Positions 2,430 to 55,148 of a stretch of 64,000 bases of DNA are shown here, piece after piece. The notes under the pieces were generated by a model, which had not been told where the DNA came from, ran no database searches, and saw only the letters and a list, made by a program, of their open reading frames with translations. A program made the position numbers and the translations under genes. Positions within the stretch are counted from its first letter, which is position 1. Each line of letters opens with the position of its first letter. The stretch covers positions 10,856,614 through 10,920,613 of the forward strand of contig NC_035171.2 in NCBI RefSeq assembly GCF_001659605.2, in the 5' to 3' direction. Origin of the DNA: Manihot esculenta. Taxonomy: Eukaryota; Streptophyta; Magnoliopsida; Malpighiales; Euphorbiaceae.

Positions 2430-2845
2430 CGAAATAGTAACGGATATTAGTAACGGATTTAAATTCGTTATAAATTTATAACGGATTAGTAATGAATTTT
2501 ATATTCCGTTATTAATTTTTATTATTTAGTAACGGATTAACAATCCGTTACTAAATCTGTTACTTAATAAAATTATTTATAAATTTAATAACAGATTTTG
2601 AAATCCGTTATAAATCCGTTACTAAATTAGCTAAAAATTAGTAACGGATTTCAATCAGTTAATAAATTTGTTACTAAATCGGTTACTAAATAAATAAATT
2701 AAATAAATAAAATAGTAACGAATTTAATAACGGAATGCAATATATTATATAATTAGTAACGGATTTAGTAACGGATTTAATCCGTTACTATTTTTTTAAT
2801 AAAAAAATCAATTGTTTATTTTTTAAAATTCCAAATTTTTATTTT
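2430..2845. repeat. Left subterminal repeat array of CACTA-1
   Basis: Many copies of (A/T)GTAACGGATT and its reverse complement AATCCGTTAC are spaced a few tens of bases apart. The same motif fills the right end at 27480-27775, and its density is confined to the two ends of the transposon. Confidence 0.75.
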
Positions 2846-3300
2846 AAGTTTAGTAACGGATTTAGTCCATTACTAAATCCGTTACTAATATAAAAATTAG
2901 TAACGGATTAAGAAATCCATTACTAAAAGTTGGAGAATAATACCGTCTTTTTATTTTCGTTCGCCCGTGTTTTTTTTTTTTTAAAATTTAGTAACGGATT
3001 TAATACGTTACTAAATCCGTTACTAATCTAAAAATTAGTAACGGATTAAGAAATCTGTTACTAAAATTTAGAGAATAATACCGCCTTTTTATTTTTGTTC
3101 GCCCGCGTTTTTTTTAAAAAAATTAGTAACGGATTTAATTCGTTACTACATCCGTTACTAATCTAAAAATTAGTAACGGATTAAGAAATCCGTTACTAAA
3201 ATTTGGAGAATAATACCGCCTTTTTATTTTAGTTCGCCCGCGTTTTTTTTTAAAATTTAGTAACGGATTAAATCCGTTACTAAATCCGTTACTAATTCGC
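2845..3300. repeat. About 135-bp tandem repeat inside CACTA-1
   Basis: Three or more direct copies of a unit carrying paired AGTAACGGATT motifs, then GGAGAATAATACCG, then TTCGCCCG and a T-run. The TTCGCCCG landmark recurs near 2960, 3099 and 3233, giving a period of about 134-139 bp. Confidence 0.7.
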
Positions 3301-27133: not shown

Positions 27134-27790
27134 CTTTTATTTTCTTTCTTTTGTTATTTTCTCTTTTATATCTCATTTTTTTCTATTCTCTCACATTTTT
27201 TCTTTTTTTAAATTTTCTCATTTAATTTTATAATAATTTTCTCATAAAATTAATAAAATTTAAAATATTAAAGTTAATATTTAATATAAAATACAATGAA
27301 AAAATTAATAGTTTACCATAATTAAATTATTATCTAATGTAAAATATAATGAAATAAATTAATTCCATTTTAAAAAAATGAAATAAATTAATAAATTAAT
27401 ATAATTTTTAAAATTAACAATAGATTTAATAACGGAATATAAATTTAAAATATTTTTTTATTTTTTATTTTATCAAATTAGTAACGGATTAGTAACGGAT
27501 TTCTATCCGTTACTAAATTTTGTAACGGATGCAATTTATTTATATATTTTTAATTTTTATTAAATTAGTAACGGATTTGAAATCCGTTACTAAATTTTAT
27601 TACAAATCCGTTACTAAATCCGTTACTAAATCAATAACGGATTGCTAATCGGTTACTATTACATTAGCAACGAGGTTCATAATAACGGATGTAAATCCAT
27701 TACTAATCCGTTACTAAAATGGTTAGTAACGGATTTTTCATTGATTAGCAACGGAAAAATCCGTTACTAATCCGGAAAAATCTTGTAGTG
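27134..27790. repeat. Right part of CACTA-1 with subterminal repeats
   Basis: The T/C-rich tract resumes, then AT-rich DNA, then a dense array of AGTAACGGATT / AATCCGTTAC motifs at 27480-27775, ending TCTTGTAGTG at 27790. Confidence 0.75.
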
Positions 27791-33875: not shown

Positions 33876-35819
33876 GCCTCTGTAACGACCCGAAAATCGG
33901 ATCGCTACCGGCGCTAGGATCCAGATCGGCTTAAGGCCGCCGGGACCCGTAGCAAGCCAACCATTCATCCTGTGAACCTGTTTAATCCCATACATGATCA
34001 ACAACATACATAAAAATTTTGAACTTTTCTTTCCATTCAAACACCAAACTCAACCTGTGCATGCACTATTCATAAACATTAACCCCACCTTGGAGTCCTC
34101 ATCAATGCTCCAATGGGGTGACATAACATAAGTTAAGTTTGGTTTACAATAATCATCATTAAACATTAAGATCATGTACTAGAAAGGGATCAACATAATA
34201 CTATGGTCAAGCACAACTCTAAACTTTCATAAGCATCATTACATAACATTTCTATATCATACTTTTACATTACATCATATCCATGTCCACATCTAGCTAT
34301 TACATAACACATGACTCTACTCCTGCTGACCTCCTGGTCTACCCTGTACCTGCAAACCTGGGGGTTAAGGGAGAAGGGTGAGCTATAAAGCCCAGTGAGC
34401 AGAATAATTAAACATTCAATTTAAATTTCATGCTTTCATGAAATGCAACATATCACAAACAATCCACATCAAGGATGAACTTGTCACCAATAGCCCACTA
34501 CTCATTCCAATAGTGCCAGGGGCGTAGACTGGGCCTCACTGGTCTTTCTCTTACATTACATTCATAACATAACATTCCAATATGCCAGGGGCGTAGAATG
34601 GGCCTCATTGGTCTTTCTCTTACATAGTGCCAGGGGCGTAGAATGGGCCTCACTGGTCTTCCATACCGTATCACATCATATCATAACGTAGTGCGGCTAA
34701 AGGATCATCCAACATTCACCCACATCAACAATATATTATGCAATGCAACATATTCGTGAATTCTAATGCAAGCACCCTAATATATCTCATGGCATTCATG
34801 ATGCGTGTATCATGCTCAAGATTTATTTATTTACTTTGAAACAAAATAAGATATTCCACTCACCTCTGGCTGAAGCTCTAACAGACTCAGAAGCAGCTGA
34901 ACTCACTGCTGGGGTCCTCGGTTCCTCGGGTCCGAACCTACACAGGTGGACTCAAATGAGGGACCTAACATACATAAACATGACTCTAAAATACTCCCCA
35001 AAAACCCCTTAAAACACCTTAAAACAATCACATAAATCATGCAAAGGAGGGCTGAACAGGGCACTTTCGGTGGCAGGTTCGGCGGCCGAAAGGCCCTCCA
35101 GAGACGAAACTCATGCATGTTCGGCGGCACCTTCGGCGGCCGAAAGTCCTCTTTTGGGGGCAGGGTTCGGCAGCCGATACATGCTACCACAAACAGGTTC
35201 GGCCGCCGAAAGAGCCTTCGGCTGCCGAACCTGAGTTCTTCCCAAAGGGCAGAAACTCAGCTCAACATGCATAAACGCCTCCCCACTCATTCAATCATGC
35301 ATTTTCCTATTCTACAACATGCATACTCAAGCATACAAGCTCCCAGGGGATTCAAACTATCCTAAACCCCAACCAAAACACATCAACAACCCACATTGCT
35401 CAAAAACATAACATAAACCCATAAACTCAACAATAACCTAAACATGCATTTCTACCCCAAGAAACTTCATAAAACTTACTTAAAACATTAAAGGAGCTAT
35501 GGATCTACTCTTACCTCTTGAAGAACGAGAGGAGAGATGATCCAACTTGGAGATGGGAGAGATCTCAACTCTTTGGTCTCCAAGCTTCCAAAACTTGCTC
35601 TTTTTGTTCAAATATATTCCAATCAACATAAAGCTTGTTAAAACATGAAAGATCGAAGGATAAACATCTAAAATGAACCATGGGAGAGCAAGAACTCACC
35701 GTGGCCGAAAATGGGGAGAAAACTCGCCCGTTTCGGCCATGGAGCTCTTATATAGGGGCTGGCAGACCACCTTTCGGCAGCCTAAAGTGCCTCCACAACT
35801 CACACTACAAAAAAATTGT

Positions 35820-36150
35820 GAAATTGCGACCAAAATTAGCGACCAAATTTTTTTGTCGCTATATAGCTACCAATCAGCGACCATTCTGCGACTGAATGAA
35901 TGAAATAATATTTTTATTTAACAAAAAGCTTAACGACCAATTTTTGGTCGTTAATTGGTCGCTATTTAGCGACCAAATATAAAATGGTCGCTAATTTAGC
36001 AGGAATTAATGGCGCGAGTTATTATCGACCATATTTGCGACGAAATTGCGATAACTTTTTGGGCAGGGATATTTAACGACCATATTTAGCGACTAAAATA
36101 ATTAGTCGCTAAATAGCGACCAATCAGCGACTAATCAACGACCATTTTAT
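35820..36150. repeat. Left subterminal repeats of CACTA-2
   Basis: Repeated GCGACCAAATTTTT / TTAGCGACCA and the reverse complement TGGTCGCTAA, matching the right-end array at 41930-42400. Confidence 0.8.
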
Positions 36151-36268
36151 TTTTAAAATTTTAATTTAATTTTTAATTAAATTTTATTTTATTTAAAATT
36201 TTAAATTAAGTAATTTCAATTCGGTATATAAAACGACGTCGTTTTGACAATTTAAGGATGCTCTAATC

Positions 36269-36798
36269 TAGGGATGTAAACGGGTAGGGTACCCGTGAAA
36301 ATTAAACTATCCGAATTCGAACCCGATTTATATTAGTAATATCTGAACCCGTTCTGAATTCGATTAAAAATTAATTTAAACTATCCGAATCCGTTCCAAA
36401 CCCAATTATTCATATAAAAAATAAAACCCGAACCCGTTTAATTTTATATATTTTAATTAATAATTTATATAAAAAATATTTTTCATTAATAATTTTCATA
36501 TAAAAAATATAATATTTCTAAAGAATATTTAAATTTAAATTTTTAAATAAAAATATATAAAAAAAATTTTATAAATATTATTATAAAATATATTTTTTTA
36601 TATTAGATTAATTATTTATATAAACGAATTCGGATAGTGGATACCTGTACATAAAATCCGAATCTGATCCGAACCTGCAACGGATATTATTTTTAAAATC
36701 CGAACCCGTCCCAAACCCGATTATAACTACCCAAATCCGTCCTATTAGGGTTCGGTCGGATCGGATACCCGAAAATACCCGATCCGTTTACATCCATA
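36269..36798. mobile_element. hAT-like MITE, copy 1
   Basis: Ends TAGGGATGTAAACGG and CCGTTTACATCCATA are inverted repeats. Flanked by 8-mers CTCTAATC (36261-36268) and CTCTAACC (36799-36806), 7 of 8 matching. An 8-bp duplication and TAGGG ends suggest hAT. Confidence 0.7.
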
Positions 36799-36805
36799 CT
36801 CTAAC

Positions 36806-37020
36806 CTAATTCCTAATCCTAATCTCTAATCCCTAATATCTAATTAATCCCTAATCCCTAATAAAATTAAATCTAATTCCTAATTCCTAATTTGTAATCT
36901 CTAACCCTAATTCCTAATTCATAATAAAATTAACCCTAATCTCTAATTCCTAATCTCGAATTCCTGATCCCTAATTCATAATCCCTAACCCTAATCCCTA
37001 ATTTTAATCTCTAAAATAGC
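36806..37020. repeat. CTAATYCC-type simple repeat (telomere-like)
   Basis: Irregular repeats of CCTAATC, CTCTAAT and CCCTAATC over about 210 bp. It resembles but does not equal the plant telomere unit CCCTAAA. A shorter version follows the second copy at 37688-37745. Confidence 0.6.
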
Positions 37021-37161
37021 GATCAATCCGCGACCATTTTATTTTTAAAATTTTAATTTAATTTTTAATTTAATTTTATTTTATTTAAAATTTTAAATTA
37101 AGTAATTTCAATTCGGTATATAAAACGACGTCGTTTTGACAATTTAAGGGATGCTCTAACC

Positions 37162-37679
37162 TAGGGATGTAAACGGGTAAGGTACCCGTGAAAATTAAAC
37201 TACCCGAACCCGAACCCGATTTATATTAGTAATATCTGAACCCGTTTCGAATCCGATTAAAAATTAATTTAAACTATCCGAATCCGTCCCAAACCCGATT
37301 ATTATTATCCGAATAAAACCCGAACCCGTTTAATCTTATATATTTTAATTAATAATTTATATAAAAAATATTTTTCATTAATAATTTTCATTTAAAAAAT
37401 ATAATATTTCTAAAGAATATTTAAATTTAAATTTTTAAATAAAAATATATAAAAAAAATTTATAAATATTATTATAAAATATATTTTTTTATATTATATT
37501 AATTATTTATATAAATGGATTCGGGTAGTGGATACCCTGTACATAAAACCCGAATCCGATCCGAACCCGCAACGGGTATTATTTTTAAAATCCAAACCCA
37601 ATTATAACTACCCAAATCCGTCCTATTAGAGTTCGGTCGGATCGGATACCCGAAAATATCCGATCCGTTTACATAGCTA
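37162..37679. mobile_element. hAT-like MITE, copy 2
   Basis: Begins TAGGGATGTAAACGG and ends CCGTTTACATAGCTA. It is flanked by a perfect 8-bp duplication CTCTAACC (37154-37161 and 37680-37687). It is a copy of 36269-36798 through the tandem duplication. Confidence 0.75.
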
Positions 37680-37904
37680 CTCTAACCTAATTCCTAATCC
37701 TAATCTCTAATCCCTAATAATTAATCCCTAATCTTAATTGTACTATTAAAGGCAAAATTAATAAAAATATAATATAAAACATTTTAAATAATATAAACTA
37801 TAAAAATAAAATCTTAATTGAAAGATAAAAAATAAACATAAATAAACAAACCTGCAATCAAAATAACCCATAAAATTCAACCCTAAATCTCTCTCAACTC
37901 TCAA

Positions 37905-38090
37905 AGTCTACTGCTGCCCTCCCCTCCCCCATTCGGCCTCTACGTCACTCGTCTGGTGCGCCTCCCGCCGATCGTGCTCCACGCTGTCAACGTCGTTTCT
38001 GCGTTCGGTTCCTGCTCTTCTCCGCCGCTTCCTCTGCTCCAGTCTTGCTGTCCGGTGCTGCTCCTCGCCGCGTCCTCGGTCACTGCAGGT
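37905..38090 (+). other. GC-rich exon-like block in CACTA-2, possibly a captured 5' exon
   Basis: About 190 bp of C-rich, CpG-containing sequence stands out from the AT-rich surroundings. It ends GGTCACTGCAG|GTTTGTGAG, a plausible splice donor. I see no ATG-initiated frame with a recognisable product, so it may be a 5' untranslated exon of an unidentified gene. Confidence 0.4.
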
Positions 38091-38505
38091 TTGTGAGATC
38101 TATTTATTTCTTAAATTTGTGAAAATATTAAGATTTATGTGAAGTTTTCGTTTGTGAGATTATTGAAAATTATTTGTAATAAAGATTATTGTGAACGGAC
38201 TGAGAGTTGTTTTAGTGAGATTATTGAAAATTTTTGAAATAAACACTACCATTCAGAGTTGTTTTCGTGATATTGAGATGTGTTTTAGAATATTGTTAAT
38301 GTGGATTTTGTGTGAATTTTTTATTTTTTGTTTTTATTGTGATTATGACTTAATCGGGTTCGGTAGTGTCTGATATTAAGGGTTAATAGTAAAGAAATTT
38401 AATTTTTAAAGGAATTTTATGTTTGCTGGTCTATAATTCCTGTTTGCTGGTCTATAATTCCTGTTTTCTTTCTCTTACATCATTACATCATTATTGGGGT
38501 TTCAG

Positions 38506-40447
38506 AACATGGCTTACTATAAGATATCTCATGTTGATGGTCAGATTACTAATCCTGAACAACGAATTGCAAGTGATGTGCCAAGATTTTGTTCAGAGTT
38601 GAGTGAACTGGTACAGGAAGACCTGACAGCAGTTACTGATGGCCTTCTCTATACTTGGCGGCTGTGCTCTTATGCTAGCCCAAAATATATTTTTTGGATA
38701 TTGGTAATTTTTTATCTGAATTCTTGATATTCTTTATGGTATTTTATTCTTTTGAATGGCTTCTGATGACCTTTGAGCTTAATATGATGAAATTGGTCTC
38801 TTAAAAATTTTCCACTTGATAGTTGACACATGATGTTAATGTTCTCAGGCCTATGTGTTGGGAGCAGGGACCATGATTAGAAACTTTTCTCCTGCTTTTG
38901 GGAAACTGATGTCAAAAGAACAACAGTTGGAAGGTGAATATCGGCAGCTTCATTCACGTTTAAGGACCCATGCTGAAAGTATAGCATTCTATGGTGGAGA
39001 ACATAGAGAGGAATCACATATTGAGCAGAAATTTAAGGATCTTGTAAGACACATGAGAATTGTTCTTCATGACCATTGGTGGTTTGGCATGATTCAAGAT
39101 TTTTTGGTGAAGTATCTTGGTGCTACAGTTGCAGTTGTATTGATTATAGAGCCCTTTTTTTGCTGGCAATCTTAGACCTGATGCCTCTACTTTGGGAAGG
39201 GCAACAATGTTAAGCAACTTAAGATATCACACCAGTGTTATTATATCACTATTTCAGTCCTTGGGAACTCTTTCTATAAGTTCAAGGCGACTCAATTGTC
39301 TCAGGTGGTTAACAATATATTCTTGGCATCCTAGCCTCGAAGGAGGCCTTATTTGTTTGTTCACCTTCTCAATATCAGCTGTTTTTTCCCTTTGCCCCCG
39401 GTCCCCTCCCTCCATAAAACTGCTCTTGCTTCCTGATGTGGAACCTTCTTCTATCAGGGATTTTAGGAAGAAATTGAGGAAATTTAATTAGGAAGTAATA
39501 TTTAATTATATATTTTTTTAAAATTTCCTTGTTAATGTTGCTTGGATATACTTAGATAACATTGATTTACTATTTTGTTTATTTTGAGGTTCCTAGTATT
39601 AGTCTACAAGTACCTATGTAGTTATTAACTCTACCCAATTTCTTCTGAAAGAAGTTAGAACTAAAATATGTGGTAGAAGAAGGTTCCACATTGATTTAGG
39701 AAATTTAATTGGAAAGTAATGTTTATTTAATTAGTCAATGGTTTGATATTCCTAGTTAGCAGTGGTTTAGTATTTTCTTGCTTCGGGGTTCCTAATTCCT
39801 AGTATTAGTCTACAAATACCTATGCAATTCAGGTCTTTTGGAGTTATTGTTATAAAAAATTGAGGATTAATAGAGTTTTGTAAGTTTTGTTTCTTTCCCT
39901 TTGAATGTTCTATACTTCTATTTGTTCTACATCACATCCATGTTCCACTTTTCTCCAATGAAAATAATTTATGGAATGAAGTGAGAAAATTTTTTTTGGA
40001 GAGAAAAAGAGAGGAAGAGTGCAAAAGAACAAATAAAAGATTATTATTTTACTGATTAGTAGGGAACTTGATTGATTTGTCCTTGAGCATGCCTTACACA
40101 TGATTATAGTTATCCTCTAAGCCTAATATTTGTCTTATTGCAGTGGTTATGCTGATCGCATTCATGAGTTAATAGTAATATCAAGAGAGCTAAACTCTGA
40201 AGATAAAACATCTCTACAAAGAAGTGGAAGTAGGAACTACTTCAGTGAAGCTGATTATGTGGAGTTTTCTAAGGTCAAGGTACCCGAAAGTCAAAACTTA
40301 AGGAGTTCATTTCTTCATGTTGTTATTATTACACATTTTGTGTTGCTTATAGCAGTAATGCCTTCTAGGTTGTTACCCCAACTGGTAATGTTTTGGTGGA
40401 AGATCTGACTCTTAAAGTTGAATCAGGATCTAATCTGTTAATTACAG
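38506..40447 (+). pseudogene. Captured fragment of a peroxisomal ABC transporter (ABCD1/CTS/PXA1 type)
   Basis: Four coding blocks with splice-like borders: 38506-38703, 38849-39304, 40144-40279 and 40369-40447. They read colinearly as the first-half transmembrane domain of a plant peroxisomal full-size ABCD transporter, which imports fatty acyl substrates into peroxisomes. Landmarks are YYKISHVDGQITNPEQRIAS, TDGLLYTWRLCSYASPKY, SFGKLMSKEQQLEGEYRQLH-like text (here PAFGKLMSKEQQ), SIAFYGGEHREES, YHTSVIISLFQSLGTLSISS, GYADRIHEL and NVLVEDLTLKVESGSNLLITG up to its donor. Introns are retained, so the capture was from genomic DNA. A T7 run at 39155-39161 adds one base after IIEPFF and shifts the frame. 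The next expected exon, with Walker A, is absent, as is all nucleotide-binding machinery. It cannot make a working transporter. Confidence 0.9.
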
Positions 40448-41513
40448 GTATTTGTTCAACTTAAAAATTAAACTATCTCCATTTTTCAATTGCATTCTAT
40501 CAGTTATCTTTTCTTGCCATTTCAGTATGGTTCTTCACAGCTCTTAAAGTTTTTTTTTTCTATTAACACGAATATCTTATGTGAAATTCCCAAATTTTGT
40601 AACCTTTTTTTTTTGTAATATGCATACCTATTAATGGCCATCCCACAGGAGCTTTTTATGGTCAATCCCTTGTTGATGTCAAGTACTGGATTAGGACAAA
40701 CATTTAATATTTGATCAGCTTATCTTTGCGATCCCAATAGAAAAATGCTGGCCAATATTGGATTGGGCTTAACGGGATGGTGAATTTGGATTCATGGATG
40801 TTTTGTTTGTAATTTTCCTCTGATGCACATCATTACATAGTGAGAAGTAATGGGCTTGTTTTCTTTCTCTTAATTTTATACTGTATTTGCTGGTCTATAA
40901 TTCCTGTTTTCTTTCTCTTAACTTTTTTTCTGTATTAAGTATCACTTCCATCTTCCTATGAATATGTTAATTCCTTATCTATTTCTTTGTGTTTTTCTTT
41001 TTCTTTTCTGTCTGTTCATCTTAACACTCTCATTCTTGCTCATGCTAAACAAAGAAAGCTCCCAGTTATGCTGAAAAAAAAAAAGAAAATATTTTTTTTT
41101 GAGTTCGAAACTTATTTCTCATTCAACTGCTGGTAGTTTTTAATAAGAACTGTTATTAGCTGCATTAAGCACATTTGCCTTCAAATTAATTTTTTCCATT
41201 GTAATTTTTAATTGCCATATGCCCATATCATTGACTATGTAATTCTTGATATTTGCAATTGAGAATGGTTGTCATGAGCTGATTTTTCTTTTCTCTTCCG
41301 AGTTATAATTCAATTCTATCCCCCCCTTTTCATGTTTTATTTTTTTCTCACCTTTTCTTGCATCCTCTTTCCATTTTAATAAAACGAAAGCTAAGGTGTT
41401 GGGGATTATAGCCTTGCTTTCCATTTTCTTTTCTTCCAAAGTTATTATGTCTGATTTATAGCCTTGCTTTCGTCTTTTGAAATTCTAAAATGGAGTTTGC
41501 AAAACTTCTGCAG
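40448..41513. other. Intron-like DNA between the two captured gene fragments
   Basis: T-rich sequence beginning at the donor GTATTTG after the transporter fragment and ending at the acceptor TTCTGCAG before the GTPase exon. The join between the two donor loci must lie here. TTTGCTGGTCTATAATTCCTG near 40887 also occurs twice at 38418-38460. Confidence 0.6.
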
Positions 41514-41636
41514 GTACTAAACCTGGAGAATATGGACAAAACCAGGCATTGGAAAATCGTGGGCTGTAGCGCATACACAGGGGAGGGGCTGCTTGAGGGA
41601 TTTGATTGGTTGGTTCAGGACATGATGATATCTTAG
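41514..41636 (+). pseudogene. Captured exon of an ARL2/TITAN5-type small GTPase
   Basis: After a splice-acceptor-like TTCTGCAG at 41506-41513, the frame reads VLNLENMDKTRHWKIVGCSA and continues YTGEGLLEGFDWLVQD. This is the C-terminal part of plant ARL2 (TITAN5), a GTPase of tubulin-folding and cell division. It includes the G5 nucleotide-binding motif CSA. After QD it diverges to MMIS and a TAG, so the family's last residues are missing. G1-G4 are not visible upstream. The 5' exons were not captured or are beyond recognition. Confidence 0.88.
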
Positions 41637-41929
41637 GATCTAGTCAACATTAAGCAATAGAGTTAGGTTTTTTTTGTTGGCCCTCTCAGAGAACTGATTA
41701 AGGTCCATTTGTACTGTTTTATTAACTATCTTATTGTTGTGGAATTTAGTCAAGCTGTGAATTCGACAAAAAAAGAAAAAAGTCAAGTTGTGAAATTTTT
41801 TGGGTCAATAGTATTATTAAAACTTTCAATGGAAAGTTTGGGTCAATATTAGTGACTAATCACCCATAAAAGCAAATTAAATAACAAATATTTTTTTGAT
41901 TTTACTATTAATTTGCAACGAAATAACGA

Positions 41930-42400
41930 CCAAATGTTCTTTTTTGAGGCGATCAAATAATAACGAAATAGCGATCAAATTAGCGATCAAAACAGTGATC
42001 ATTTCGCGATTAAAATTTAGCGATCAAAAAATGGTTGCTGATTGGTCACTATTAAGTAATATTTAATTTGCCATGACACCAAATTAGCGACCAAAAAATG
42101 GTCGCTGATTGGTCGTTATTTTGTAATATTTAATTTGCCCTGACACTAAATTAGCGACCAAAAAATGGTCGCTGATTGGTCGCTATTTTGTAATATTTAA
42201 TTTGCCCTCACACCAAATTAGCGACCAAAAAATGGTCGCTGATTGGTCGCTATTTTAGCGACCAATTTTCAGATTGTCGCCAAAAAATTAGCGACTGGCC
42301 AAATACCGACCATTTCATTTTGGTCGCTAAATGGTCGCTATTTCATAATAGCGACCAAATTCTGCCTTTTAGCGACCAAAATTTTAGTCGCTAAATCACT
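41930..42400. repeat. Right subterminal array of CACTA-2 with a 67-bp tandem repeat
   Basis: Units beginning AAATTAGCGACC at 42081, 42148 and 42215 (period 67 bp), each with paired inverted GCGACCA/TGGTCGC motifs, preceded by a degenerate unit near 42010. Confidence 0.85.
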
Positions 42401-42700
42401 GTTTTTTTGTAGTGTCATGCAAGTTCGGCGGCCGAACATGAGGTTCGGCGGCCGAACCTTTGAAACTTTCGGAAGCCTAACTTGCCCCCCTAAACTATTC
42501 AATGTTCGGCGGCCGAACCTGGAAATGCCTCCTTGGTCTTTTTCGTTCAAAACTCAATTTCCTTTCTTGCATAAAACCATAAAATACATTAAAACATTTT
42601 AGGAAAACATGGTTTTACCCTTCTAGAGGTTTCCGACATCCAAGATTCGACCGGACGGTAGGAATTCCGATACCGGAGTCTAGCCGGGTATTATAGCCTC

Positions 42701-43106: not shown

Positions 43107-45390
43107 TGTAACGACCCGAAAATCGGACCGCTACCGGCGCTAGGATCCAGATCGGCTTAAGGCCGCCGGGACCCGTAGCAAGCCAAACATTCATCCTGTA
43201 TACCTGTTTAATCCCATACATGATCAACAATTACATAAAAATTTAAAACTTTCTCATTTACTCATTCATTCATTCATTCTTTCACCAAACTTAACCTGTG
43301 CATGCACAAATCATAACATAAAACCTCTCACTGGAGTCCTCATCAAATACTCCAATGGGGTAACATAACATACATTAAGCTTGGTTCACAATAATCATCA
43401 TTAAACATTTAAGATCATGTACTAGAAAGGGATTAACAACATACTATGGTCAAGCACAACTCTAAACTTCCATAAGCATCAATACATTACATTTCTATAC
43501 TATACTTTTACATTACATCATATTCATGTCCACATCTAGCTATTACATAAAACATGACTCTACTCCTGCTGACCTCCTGGTCTACTCTGTACCTGCAAAT
43601 CTAGGGGTTAAGGGAGAGGGGTGAGCTATAAAGCCCAGTGAGCAGAATAAATAAACATTCAATTTATATTTCATGCTTTCATGAAATGCAACACAGCACA
43701 AACAAATCACATCAAGGATGGACTTGTCACCAATAGTCCTCAACATAGTCCAATCATGCCAGAGGCGTAGAATGGGCCTCACTGGTCTTTCTCTTAACAT
43801 AACATAACATAGCATAACATTCCATAGTGCCAGGGGCGTAGAATGGGCCTCACTGGTCTTTCTCTTAACATAGTGCCAGGGGCGTAGAATGGGCCTCACT
43901 GGTCTTCCATACCGTATACCATAACATACGAGGACTAAAGGATCATTCAACATCCATCTACATCATCATCAAGTTATGCAATGCAACATATTCGTGAATT
44001 CTAATGCAAACAACCTAGTATATCTCATGGCATACATGATGCATGTATCATGCTCAAAATTTATTTATTTGCTTTGAAACGTAATGAGTTATTCCACTCA
44101 CCTCTGGCTGAAGCTCTAATGACTCTGAAGCAGCTATCTCACTGCTGAGGGCCTCGGTTCCTCAGGTCCAAACCTACACAGGTGGACTCAAATGAGGGAC
44201 CAAACATCCATGAACATAACTCTAAAATACTCCCCAAAAATCCCCCAAAACACCTTAAAACAATCACATAAATCATGCAAAGGAGGGCTGAACATGGCAC
44301 TTTCGGCAGCAAGTTCGGCGGCCGAAAGTCCCTCCAGAGCCGAAAGTCATGCACCTTCGGCGGCACTTTCGGCGGCCGAAGGTTCCCTCCAGAGACGAAA
44401 CTCATGCATGTTCGGCGGCACCTTCGGCGGCCGAAACTCCCTTCCAGAGCCGAAAGTCCACTTTCGGGGGCAGGGTTCGGCAGCCAAAAGTTGGCCTCCA
44501 CAGGCAAGTTCGGCAGCCGAAAGTCCCTTCGGCTGCCGAACCTGAGTTCTCCCAAAGGGGCAGAAACTCAGCTCCAACATGCACAAAAGCCTTCCAACTC
44601 ATTCACATATGCATTTACCTAGTCTACAACATGCAAACTCAAGCAACAAGCACTTAGGGGTTTCAAACTAACTTAAACCCCAACCAAAACACATCAAACA
44701 ACCCACATTGCTAAAAAACTCAACATAAACCCATAAAACCAACAATAACCTAAACATGCATTTCTACCCCACAAAACTCATAAAACTTGTTTAAAACATA
44801 CTAGAATGGCAGGATCGAAGCTTACCTCTTGAAGATCTAGAGGAGAAACGACCCTAACTTGGAGATGGAGGAGATCTCAACTCTTTGGTCTCTAATCTCC
44901 AAAAACTTGCTCTTTTTCTCAAATATCTTCAAATCAAGATAAAACTCATTAAAACTCTAAAGATCGAAGGAAAAACATCAAAAACGAACCATGGGAGAGC
45001 AGGGACTCACCGTGGCCGAAAATGGGGAGAAAACTCGCCCGTTTCAGCCATGGAGCCCTTTTATAGGGGCTGCCAAACCACCTTTCGGCAGCCTAAAGTG
45101 CCTCCAAAACTCATGCAAGTTCGGCGGCCGAACATGAGGTTCGGCGGCCGAACCTTTGAAACTTTCGGAAGCCTAACTTGCCCCCCTAAACTATCCAATG
45201 TTTGGCGGCCGAACATGGAAATGCCTCCATGGTCTTTTTCATTCAAAACTCAATTTCCTTTCTTGCTTAAAACCATAAAATACATTAAAACATTTTATGA
45301 AAACATGGTTTTACCCTTCTAGAGATTTCCAACATCCGAGATTCCACCGGACAGTAGGAATTCCGATACCGGAGTCTAGCTGGTATTACA
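43107..45390 (-). repeat. Element D LTR, left copy (3' LTR)
   Basis: TGTAACGACCCGAAAATCGG to GGTATTACA. It has three copies of the GCCAGGGGCGTAGAATGGGCC block (43755-43910), a palindrome cluster at 44300-44540, a minus-strand TATAAAAGGG near 45058 and a second cluster at 45118-45210. Confidence 0.9.
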
Positions 45391-52938: not shown

Positions 52939-55143
52939 TGTAACGACCCGAAAATCGAACCGCTATCGGCGCTAGGATCCAGATCGGCTTAAGGCCACCA
53001 GGACTCGTAGCAAGCCTAACATTCATCCTGTATACCTGTTTAATCCCATACATGATCAACAATTACATAAAAATTTAAAACTTTCTCATTTACTCATTCA
53101 TTCATTCATTCTTTCACCAAGCTTAACCTATGCATGCATAAATCATAACATAAAACCTCTCACTGGAGTCCTCATCAAATATTCCAATGGGGTAACATAA
53201 CATACATTAAGCTTGGTTCACAATAATCATCATTAAACATTTAAGATCATGTACTAGAAAGGGATTAACAACATACTATGGTCAAGCACAACTCTAAACT
53301 TCCATAAGCATCAATACATTACATTTCTATACTATACTTTTACATTACATCATATTCATGTCCACATCTAGCTATTACATAAAACATGACTCTATTCCTG
53401 CTAACCTCCTGGTCTACCCTGTACCTGCAAATCTGGGGGTTAAGGGAGAAGGGTGAGCTATAAAGCCCAGTGAGCAGAATAAATAAACATTCAATTTATA
53501 TTTCATGCTTTCATGAAATGCAACACAGCACAAACAAATCACATCAAGGATGGACTTGTCACCAATAGTCCTCAACATAGTCCAATCATGCCAGGGGCGT
53601 AGAATGGGCCTCACTGGTCTTTCTCTTAACATAGTGCCAGGGGCGTAGAATGGGCCTCACTGGTCTTCCATACCGTGTCATCATCATACCATAACATACG
53701 AGGACTAAAGGATCATTCAACATCCATCCACATCATCATCAAGTTATGCAATGCAACATATTCGTGAATTCTAATGCAAACAACCTAGTATATCTCATGG
53801 CATACGTGATGCATGTATCATGCTCAAAATTTATTTATTTGCTTTGAAACGTAATGAGTTATTCCACTCACCTCTGGCTGAAGCTCTAATGACTCTGAAG
53901 CAGCTATCTCACTGCTGAGGGCCTCGGTTCCTCGGGTCCAAACCTACACAGATGGACTCAAATGAGGGACCAAACATCCATGAACATGACTCTAAAATAC
54001 TCTCCAAAAACCCCCTAAAATACCTTAAAACAATCACATAAATCATGCAAAGGAGGGCTGAACAGGGCCGAAAGTCCCTCCAGAGCCAAAAGTCATGCAC
54101 CTTCGGCGGCACTTTCGGCGGCCGAAGGTTCCCTCCAGAGACGAAACTCATGCATGTTCGGCGGCACCTTCAGCGGCCGAAACTCCCTTCCAGAGCCGAA
54201 AGTCCACTTTCGGAGGCAGGGTTCGGCAGCCAAAAGTTGGCCTCCACAATCAGGTTCGGCGGCCGAAAGTCCCTTCAGCTGCCGAACCTGAGTTCTCCCA
54301 AAGGGGCAGAAACTCAGCTCCAACATGCACAAAAGCCTTCTAACTCATTCACATATGCATTTACCTAGTCTACAACATGCAAACTCAAGCAACAAGCACT
54401 TAGGGGTTTCAAACTAACTTAAACCCCAACCAAAACACATCAAACAACCCACATTGCTCAAAAACTCAACATAAACCCATAAAACCAACAATAACCTAAA
54501 CATGCATTTCTACCCCACAAAACTCATAAAACTTGTTTAAAACATACTAGAATGGCAGGATCGAAGCTTACCTCTTGAAGATCTAGAGGAGAAACGATCC
54601 TAACTTGGAGATGGGGGAGATCTCAACTCTTTGGTCTCCAATCTCCAAAAACTTGCTCTTTTGCTCAAATATCTTCAAATCAAGATAAAATTCGTTAAAA
54701 CTCTAAAGATCGGAGGAAAAACATTAAAAACGAACCATGGGAGAGCAGGGACTCACTGTGGCCGAAAATGGGGAGAAAACTTGCCTGTTTCGGCCATGGA
54801 GCCCTTTTATAGGGGCTGCCAGACCACCTTTCGGCAACCTAAAGTGCCTCCAAAACTCATGCAAGTTCGGCGGCAGAACATGAGGTTCGACGGCCGAACC
54901 TTTGAAACTTTCGGAAGCCTAACTTGCCCCCCTAAACTATCCAATGTTCGGCGGGGGCAGCCGAACCTGGAAATGCCTCCATGGTCTTTTTCATTCAAAA
55001 CTCAATTTCCTTTCTTGCTTAAAACCATAAAATACATTAAAATATTTTATGAAAACATAGTTTTACCCTTCTAGAGGTTTTCGACATCCGAGATTCCACC
55101 GGACGGTAGGAATTCTGATATCGGAGTCTAGCCGGGTATTACA
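52939..55143 (-). repeat. Element D LTR, right copy (5' LTR)
   Basis: 2205 bp, matching 43107-45390. It has only two copies of the GGGGCGTAGAATGGGCC block (53583-53670) against three in the left LTR, and several small indels. Confidence 0.9.
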
Positions 55144-55148
55144 GTACT

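Follow-up and report, generated by a model that had tools for sequence, protein, structure and literature searches.

Gene-capturing transposons are known from several plant superfamilies. The soybean CACTA transposon Tgm-Express1 (5.7 kb) carries several unrelated host gene fragments with their exons and introns, as parts of its published account describe (PMC1947982). Pack-MULEs of rice and maize and the Helitrons of maize likewise capture and spread pieces of genes, which can feed small RNAs and come into epigenetic conflict with their donors, according to sections of PMC13317346. Here we describe a CACTA element of 6612 bp, similar in size to Tgm-Express1 and also loaded with fragments of unrelated host genes, in a 64-kb stretch of the genome of cassava, Manihot esculenta (G000:C11:10856614-10920613; hereafter the window, in which all coordinates are given unless stated). 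The element (35803-42414) contains a piece of the gene for the peroxisomal transporter CTS/PXA1 (ABCD1) and pieces of a TITAN5/ARL2 gene. It is a Pack-CACTA without a recognizable transposase, a known kind of transposon. The reading that we consider well supported, and probable, is that the CTS piece was captured a single time, by break repair in an older element that already carried TITAN5, and that the product then spread in trans to four sites.

The element, its source genes, and its copies

The borders of the element are fixed to the base. Two occurrences of the 13-bp end, CACTACAAAAAAA, were found in the window (35803-35815, +, and 42402-42414, -), against a chance expectation of 0.02, and a TCA target duplication lies outside each end. 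The flanks, joined by a single TCA, aligned without a gap across the junction to two homologous long terminal repeats (LTRs) of the window (91.6% to 44821-45388 and 90.3% to 54567-55144), which preserve the empty site. Short GCGACCAAA-type repeats are found in both orientations at both ends. CACTA-initial inverted ends, a 3-bp duplication, and subterminal repeats place the element in the CACTA (En/Spm, CMC) superfamily; host coding DNA with parents elsewhere and multiple copies at unrelated sites place it among Pack-CACTA/Pack-TYPE elements. No open reading frame (ORF) of at least 120 aa was found within 35803-42414, and a spliced transposase was not sought separately. The exact borders, the perfect ends, the TCA duplication, and the empty site in a homologous LTR had all been proposed in a preliminary description of this DNA, and each agreed with the present alignments. 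The features are as follows.

35800-35802, target-site duplication TCA, left copy
35803-35815 (+), 13-bp CACTA terminal inverted repeat, left
35803-36125 (+), left subterminal region with GCGACCAAA-type repeats
36126-37725 (+), two direct copies of about 0.72 kb each (36126-36845 and 37018-37725), the unit being shared with family relatives
37880-38411 (+), GC-rich leader and intron-like stretch, common to some relatives
38412-38490 (+), filler of the left capture junction
38491-40861 (+), continuous CTS/PXA1 (ABCD1) gene piece with four exons and introns, best match on contig C6
38506-38703 (+), CTS exon block 1
38849-39304 (+), CTS exon block 2, with a frameshift from an extra T in 39150-39156
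40144-40279 (+), CTS exon block 3
40369-40447 (+), CTS exon block 4
40862-40881 (+), filler of the right capture junction
40882-41407 (+), family segment, found at full length and 99% identity in four relatives and as 41178-41407 only in a fifth
41408-41412, deletion point; five relatives are about 0.2-0.9 kb longer here, four of them with an extra TITAN5 exon
41413-41623 (+), TITAN5/ARL2 piece, comprising the end of the final intron and the final exon up to a cut within the ninth codon before the parent's stop
41620-41840 (+), two more pieces from the 3' side of the TITAN5 parent (L032 3466-3603 and 3603-3646), joined with about 560 bp missing
42017-42256 (+), 67-bp subterminal tandem repeat
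42402-42414 (-), 13-bp CACTA terminal inverted repeat, right
42415-42417, target-site duplication TCA, right copy
44821-45388 (+), homologous LTR with empty target site
54567-55144 (+), second homologous LTR with empty target site

The duplicated unit on the left contains a piece resembling a miniature inverted-repeat transposable element, with inverted GGATGTAAACGG-type ends recognized by eye (36275-36798 and 37165-37675). It occurs twice because an internal segment of about 0.9 kb was duplicated, an arrangement present across the family.

The four CTS exon blocks are colinear, lie on the plus strand, and have intact AG/GT borders; blocks 1 and 2 matched a plant ABC transporter D family member 1 in PDB (E 2e-134). 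A whole-genome search with the CTS block gave six candidate places, all scored: four elements, one gene on contig C6, and a paralogue on C12 (82%). The C6 gene (L008) and the CTS piece form one collinear alignment of 2371 bp, introns included, with 53 differences in 2370 aligned bases. The match at C6 is confined to 38491-40861, and no element ends or remnant were seen in the 10 kb read around the gene. On the right side of the element, a TITAN5 reading frame runs from 41514 to 41636, with homology to the parent gene ending at 41623; the exon matched ARL2 in PDB (E 2e-8). Searching the genome with the Arabidopsis TITAN5 protein identified two genes, one on C1 (L032) and one on C2 (L033). The captured exon is 98% identical over 211 bp to the former, compared with 87% over 174 bp to the latter. 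Within the ninth codon before the parent's stop, it passes into sequence that lies about 560 bp further downstream, and the TITAN5 capture must, therefore, have been rearranged later. The exon alignments and PDB matches bear out the earlier account of four ABCD1/CTS blocks and one ARL2/TITAN5 block on one strand with CTS intron borders kept. The search for parent genes and the comparison of introns that it had called for showed that the fragments do come from different loci, with a C6 gene collinear through all introns and a C1 gene that fits the TITAN5 exon.

Full copies with both the CTS and the TITAN5 pieces are present on four contigs, with target duplications TCA/TCA (C11, the window), ATA/GTA (C10), ATT/ATT (C1), and GAA/GAA (C15). 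A search for copies sharing the ends had also been suggested; these four keep both the interior and the ends and are thus mobile as a unit. Among the 10 elements with both ends in hand, the 3-bp duplication is perfect in nine. Apart from small length changes, all four CTS copies share the same capture junctions and fillers, and they share 44 base differences from the C6 gene (three more are common to the three copies that retain that stretch). Such joint possession of fillers and base differences indicates that CTS was captured once.

The relatives of these copies give the order of events. Five TITAN5-bearing relatives (L021-L025) are all members of the family, and all five lack CTS and have other sequence in its position (in L023, the left border of the replaced interior was not seen); four of the five retain an extra TITAN5 exon. 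Besides the two genes, the C-terminal TITAN5 exon occurs at 46 places by hand count, and all nine of those that were read lie inside family elements; the TITAN5 end block gave 57 candidate places, of which 40 were scored. With at least 46 matching places and no CTS in any of the five relatives, the TITAN5 piece is, on these comparisons, older in the family than the CTS piece.

The family is larger than its TITAN5-bearing part. The left end (35803-36060) has 263 candidate places, its own included; the 40 scored were all at 96-100%, and 16 of these lie within 10 kb of a listed TITAN5 exon in the same orientation. Four left ends without a nearby TITAN5 exon were fetched, and three proved to be complete elements with perfect duplications; in L038, retroelement ORFs follow the first 1.1 kb, and the sequence read contains no right end. 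The cargo varies. L041 (G000:C5:12341150-12350149) carries a piece of a calcium-dependent protein kinase gene at 2766-3279, on the opposite strand (E 1.2e-23). L022 (G000:C16:11434500-11442099) carries, at 1977-2477, a piece of an uncharacterized plant gene 99% identical to LOC110608210. This cargo most likely corresponds to the gene model MANES_16G051400v8 (152 aa), which is near-identical to part of LOC110608210 and is probably, then, transposon cargo itself. L025 (G000:C15:27801700-27809299) has two coding-looking pieces at element positions 1090-1410 and 2474-2713. Its leucine-rich-repeat-like fragment matched below the Pfam cut-off, and for the second piece a tentative "MINPP-like" (inositol phosphatase) label found no support in Pfam or NCBIfam; a tentative "MTP-like" name for L039 found none in Pfam, PDB, or NCBIfam. 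L039 (5335-5619) and L040 (4873-5163) share an ORF of about 97 aa near the right end, coiled-coil in appearance and without a Pfam match above the cut-off, which is possibly a remnant of the family's own protein.

Relatives with the same ends and different cargo indicate that the family acquires and swaps cargo and, as far as these sequences tell, that the window holds one lineage of it. The preliminary description had counted the same ends around a different interior against itself. The relatives are literally of this kind, but the four copies keep their interior; the finding is one of cargo swapping, and capture stands.

Capture junctions and the origin of the CTS piece

Both junctions of the CTS piece contain short filler. 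The left filler starts with two copies of TGTTTGCTGGTCTATAATTCC and one of TGTTTTCTTTCTCTTA, matching the element sequence from 40882 on, just right of the break, followed by CATCATTA repeats (38478-38493; also in L009 and L010). There are two such repeats in C11 and C15 and more in C10 and C1; with its repeat number varying among copies, this filler is itself unstable. The right filler contains another copy of TTTTCTTTCTCTTAA, and in the other three elements it is extended by about 10 bp. The ancestral arrangement survives in relatives: the left flank continues past 38411 in L024, and the right flank extends before 40882 in L022, L024, and L025. About 1.1 kb separates the two flanks in L024, and this stretch is gone in the CTS copies.

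Templated short filler flanking a copied donor segment is a signature of break repair with template switching. Because both CTS junctions have filler that matches element sequence next to the break, and because the ancestral interior between them has disappeared, a repair step is the favored explanation. In the sequence of events that we propose, an older, TITAN5-carrying member of the family would have suffered a break in its interior. The broken end may then have invaded a CTS gene and copied about 2.4 kb before end joining with template switches. The donor would have been a CTS allele about 2% diverged from C6, captured shortly before the spread, and the product was presumably carried to four sites by the transposase of another element acting in trans. 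Element ends would have been methylated, with the CTS cargo mostly spared.

The distance to C6 bears on both the donor and the timing. Fixed differences amount to 44 of 2026 comparable columns (2.17%), comprising 24 transversions, 9 C-to-T changes, and 11 T-to-C changes. Columns that unite the four CTS copies within the family parts are very few: 5 of 2192 in the 5' part (vs. L021 and L024), 2 of 676 in the 3' part (vs. L021-L024), and 0 of 509 in the segment 40882-41407 (vs. L022-L025). The stem of the CTS lineage is thus almost nil, and the 2.2% distance between CTS and C6 does not measure how long ago the capture took place. A long interval between CTS capture and spread, as that distance would imply, was rejected on this ground. 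A better fit, which we consider likely, is a donor allele of CTS that differed by about 2% from the assembled C6 sequence, since the 44 differences resemble ordinary divergence; error-prone copying is a possible alternative source. Cassava is described as highly heterozygous in parts of PMC9299708.

Several observations weigh against this account. C6 is the nearest gene but not an exact donor; time since capture cannot account for the 2.2%, so that one has to invoke either a donor allele that had diverged or copying with errors; and some of the 44 differences adjoin indels (∼40540-40600) and depend on the alignment. The C10 copy, one of the four, has an imperfect target duplication (ATA/GTA). 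No autonomous partner emerged, the genome not having been searched for transposase genes. The absence of an element remnant at C6 is limited to the 10 kb covered around that gene.

Two other origins of the CTS piece were weighed. Under tandem insertion, two family members would have flanked the piece within a CTS gene, lost their inner ends, and left as one. This mechanism is the one proposed for Arabidopsis Pack-CACTA elements and extended to other Pack-TYPE elements in parts of PMC8903248 and PMC13317346, which counts in its favor and against repair copying; the left and right parts of the element could then derive from two different family members, and an intact C6 locus would carry little weight against it were a different allele the actual donor. 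However, the C6 stretch retains the piece with no element remnant in the sequence read around it, and the left filler is a double short copy of right-side sequence while the right filler copies the same stretch, which fits template switching at one broken element. We regard tandem insertion as unlikely, although it deserves to be taken seriously. The other possibility is that the host-like blocks are an ancestral gene locus to which the CACTA ends belong by chance or by a separate insertion. It has nothing in its favor beyond the intact splice borders. Against it stand the ends, the target duplication, the empty site, the recurrence of this unit, ends included, at C10, C1, and C15, and best-matching genes that lie elsewhere. 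The preliminary description had named blocks at an ancestral locus lacking CACTA ends as a finding that would overturn it; that is not what we found, and the comparison of the four copies refutes this reading, to which we assign a negligible probability. Repair copying into an older TITAN5-carrying element, followed by spread in trans, is the account that we retain.

C-to-T changes and the reading frame of the cargo

The CTS piece and the family sequence around it have accumulated changes differently. Divergence among the four copies is 0.21-0.44% in the CTS piece and 0.8-2.5% in the 5' part. Single-copy C-to-T/G-to-A changes number 55 in 3116 G/C bases of the 5' part and 5 in 3086 of the CTS piece (p 9e-12), a roughly 10-fold contrast. 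The excess is present in CG, CHG, and CHH contexts; in CHH alone, the counts are 28/1700 in the 5' part and 3/2534 in CTS (p 7e-9). In contrast, transversions show no detectable difference (16/10455 vs. 8/9025, p 0.22), and the ratio of C-to-T changes to transversions, a test that does not depend on age, is 55:16 in the 5' part and 5:8 in CTS (p 0.008). A C-to-T excess in all three contexts without a difference in transversions points to methylation of the ends more than of the cargo. It suggests that the ends have been methylated in all contexts, as by small-RNA-directed methylation, and the CTS cargo much less. Accounts of captured maize genes in parts of PMC13317346 report that a captured piece is silenced only to a limited extent where the donor gene is required, and the record of ends but not cargo fits this captured-gene conflict.

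The record is not uniformly clean. The p-values are uncorrected, the changes are taken as independent, and the regions were chosen after the divergence contrast had been seen. The C-to-T contrast is weaker in the 3' part (8/960 without the tandem repeat, p 0.004). Its transversions also exceed those of CTS (0.27% vs. 0.09%, p 0.02; p 0.11 without the 67-bp repeat), and among the four copies reverse changes (nine) are as common there as C-to-T changes (eight), perhaps because majority polarity fails where C15 stands alone. The 3' part of C15 is no closer to the other CTS copies (2.58-3.82%) than to the relatives (2.40-5.88%). In the five relatives, the 3' part exceeds the middle in both C-to-T changes and transversions; when the divergent L025 is left out (n = 4, all without CTS), C-to-T changes still differ (18/1357 in the 3' part vs. 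9/2003 in the middle, p 0.009), and the contrast in transversions is lost (p 0.18). The TITAN5-derived block is intermediate, with 0.89% C-to-T changes per G/C base. Apart from the C-to-T contrast of the 3' part and the comparison without L025, these points count against a simple division into methylated ends and spared cargo. The suggestion made earlier that the element could feed small-RNA control of its parent genes fares differently for its two halves: for CTS, it is weakened, since the changes fall far more on the ends than on a cargo that appears little methylated, and for TITAN5 the record lies between.

The first CTS exon opens a frame of 173 aa, from its ATG to a stop caused by the extra T at 39150-39156. 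The public gene model MANES_10G053150v8 (three member sequences on two contigs) consists of exactly this frame; it is limited to the CTS piece and ends at the frameshift. The preliminary description also envisaged a chimeric RNA containing both fragments; such a transcript would extend well beyond this model, and it stays hypothetical. Annotation of a gene model is not proof of expression. By sequence identity, MANES_10G053150v8 is transposon cargo, and a CTS fragment without the ATP-binding part is likely not a working transporter.

Three further readings concern the ends and the cargo. After a single capture, some ends might have been replaced from other family members by gap repair or conversion, giving cargo and ends partly different histories, so that the ends would seem older and more heavily scarred than the cargo. 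The counts of variable columns among the four copies (80/2192 in the 5' part vs. 15/2026 in CTS) and the scarcity of columns uniting the four against relatives are compatible with such exchange, as is the 3' part of C15, no nearer to the other CTS copies than to relatives; imported ends would, moreover, bring their own C-to-T scars. But at both ends, patterns grouping C10 with C1, and then these with C11, outweigh those in conflict with them; in the CTS piece, one site each favors these groups. The 5' transversions, which are not significantly raised, and the age-independent ratio also speak against exchange, which we consider decidedly unlikely. A different proposal makes the cargo a shield: small RNAs against it would hit an indispensable parent gene, the host would methylate only the ends, the cargo would stay clean, and this cargo would be the reason that the TITAN5 subfamily reached dozens of sites. 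We offer this only as speculation, and think it quite improbable. That the element is a domesticated chimeric gene under selection, its 173-aa piece acting on the peroxisomal transporter or making a regulatory RNA, seems very unlikely indeed. The frame is the same in C11 and C10, differs by one residue in C1, and has entered the public annotation, and the exons have diverged less from C6 than the introns (11/868 vs. 41/1464 differences; exon limits were off by one base at four of eight borders, which leaves the comparison unaffected). Nevertheless, about 300 bp of the frame are lost in C15, and of the nine exon differences that could be polarized with the C12 paralogue, six map to the element and three to the C6 gene. 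Young copies such as these are expected to be identical even without selection, and constraint on the donor gene alone predicts lower divergence in exons. The case for selection on the 173-aa frame is weak.

Neighboring features and comparison with described systems

A second CACTA-like element, of another family, spans 2414-27790, with CACTACAAAAATCTGTCG at 2414, TCTTGTAGTG ending at 27790, and AGTAACGGAT subterminal repeats. It is apparently split by nested LTR retrotransposons, and its flanking 3 bp do not match (ATT and TAT). About 850 bp before its start lies a chalcone/stilbene synthase-type gene (108-1564), apparently of two exons, in which the ORF at 548-1564 matches PF00195 and PF02797.

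Among the papers listed in a non-exhaustive literature search on gene-capturing CACTA and Pack elements, none was noted that describes this cassava family or a C-to-T contrast between ends and cargo in a Pack-CACTA. What is added here are the source genes, the order of capture, the junctions, the size of the family, a public gene model that is cargo, the misfit to C6, and the end-versus-cargo contrast. Together, these document, base by base, how one CACTA family of a staple crop captured genes in series: TITAN5 first, and then CTS or other genes, depending on the lineage. Resolved cases with source genes and junctions are needed to choose between the repair-copying and tandem-insertion models, and the C-to-T contrast offers a trace, open to testing, of host silencing directed at elements loaded with copies of host genes.

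Set beside the described systems, the cassava element differs from each. Tgm-Express1 carries five fragments, of other genes in another species, and is spliced into a host transcript according to cDNA, as given in portions of PMC1947982, whereas the cassava element is known from sequence alone; for the latter, the source genes, the junctions in common, and the set of four copies have been worked out. Pack-MULEs and Helitrons belong to other superfamilies, with other ends and mechanisms, and in the conflict with donors treated in parts of PMC13317346, the CTS cargo of cassava appears to have been largely spared. The Arabidopsis Pack-CACTA elements are few in number, and the capture route proposed for them in parts of PMC8903248 is tandem insertion and remobilization. 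The cassava family, with 263 candidate left ends (40 scored), is larger, and its CTS junctions instead resemble break repair with templated filler.

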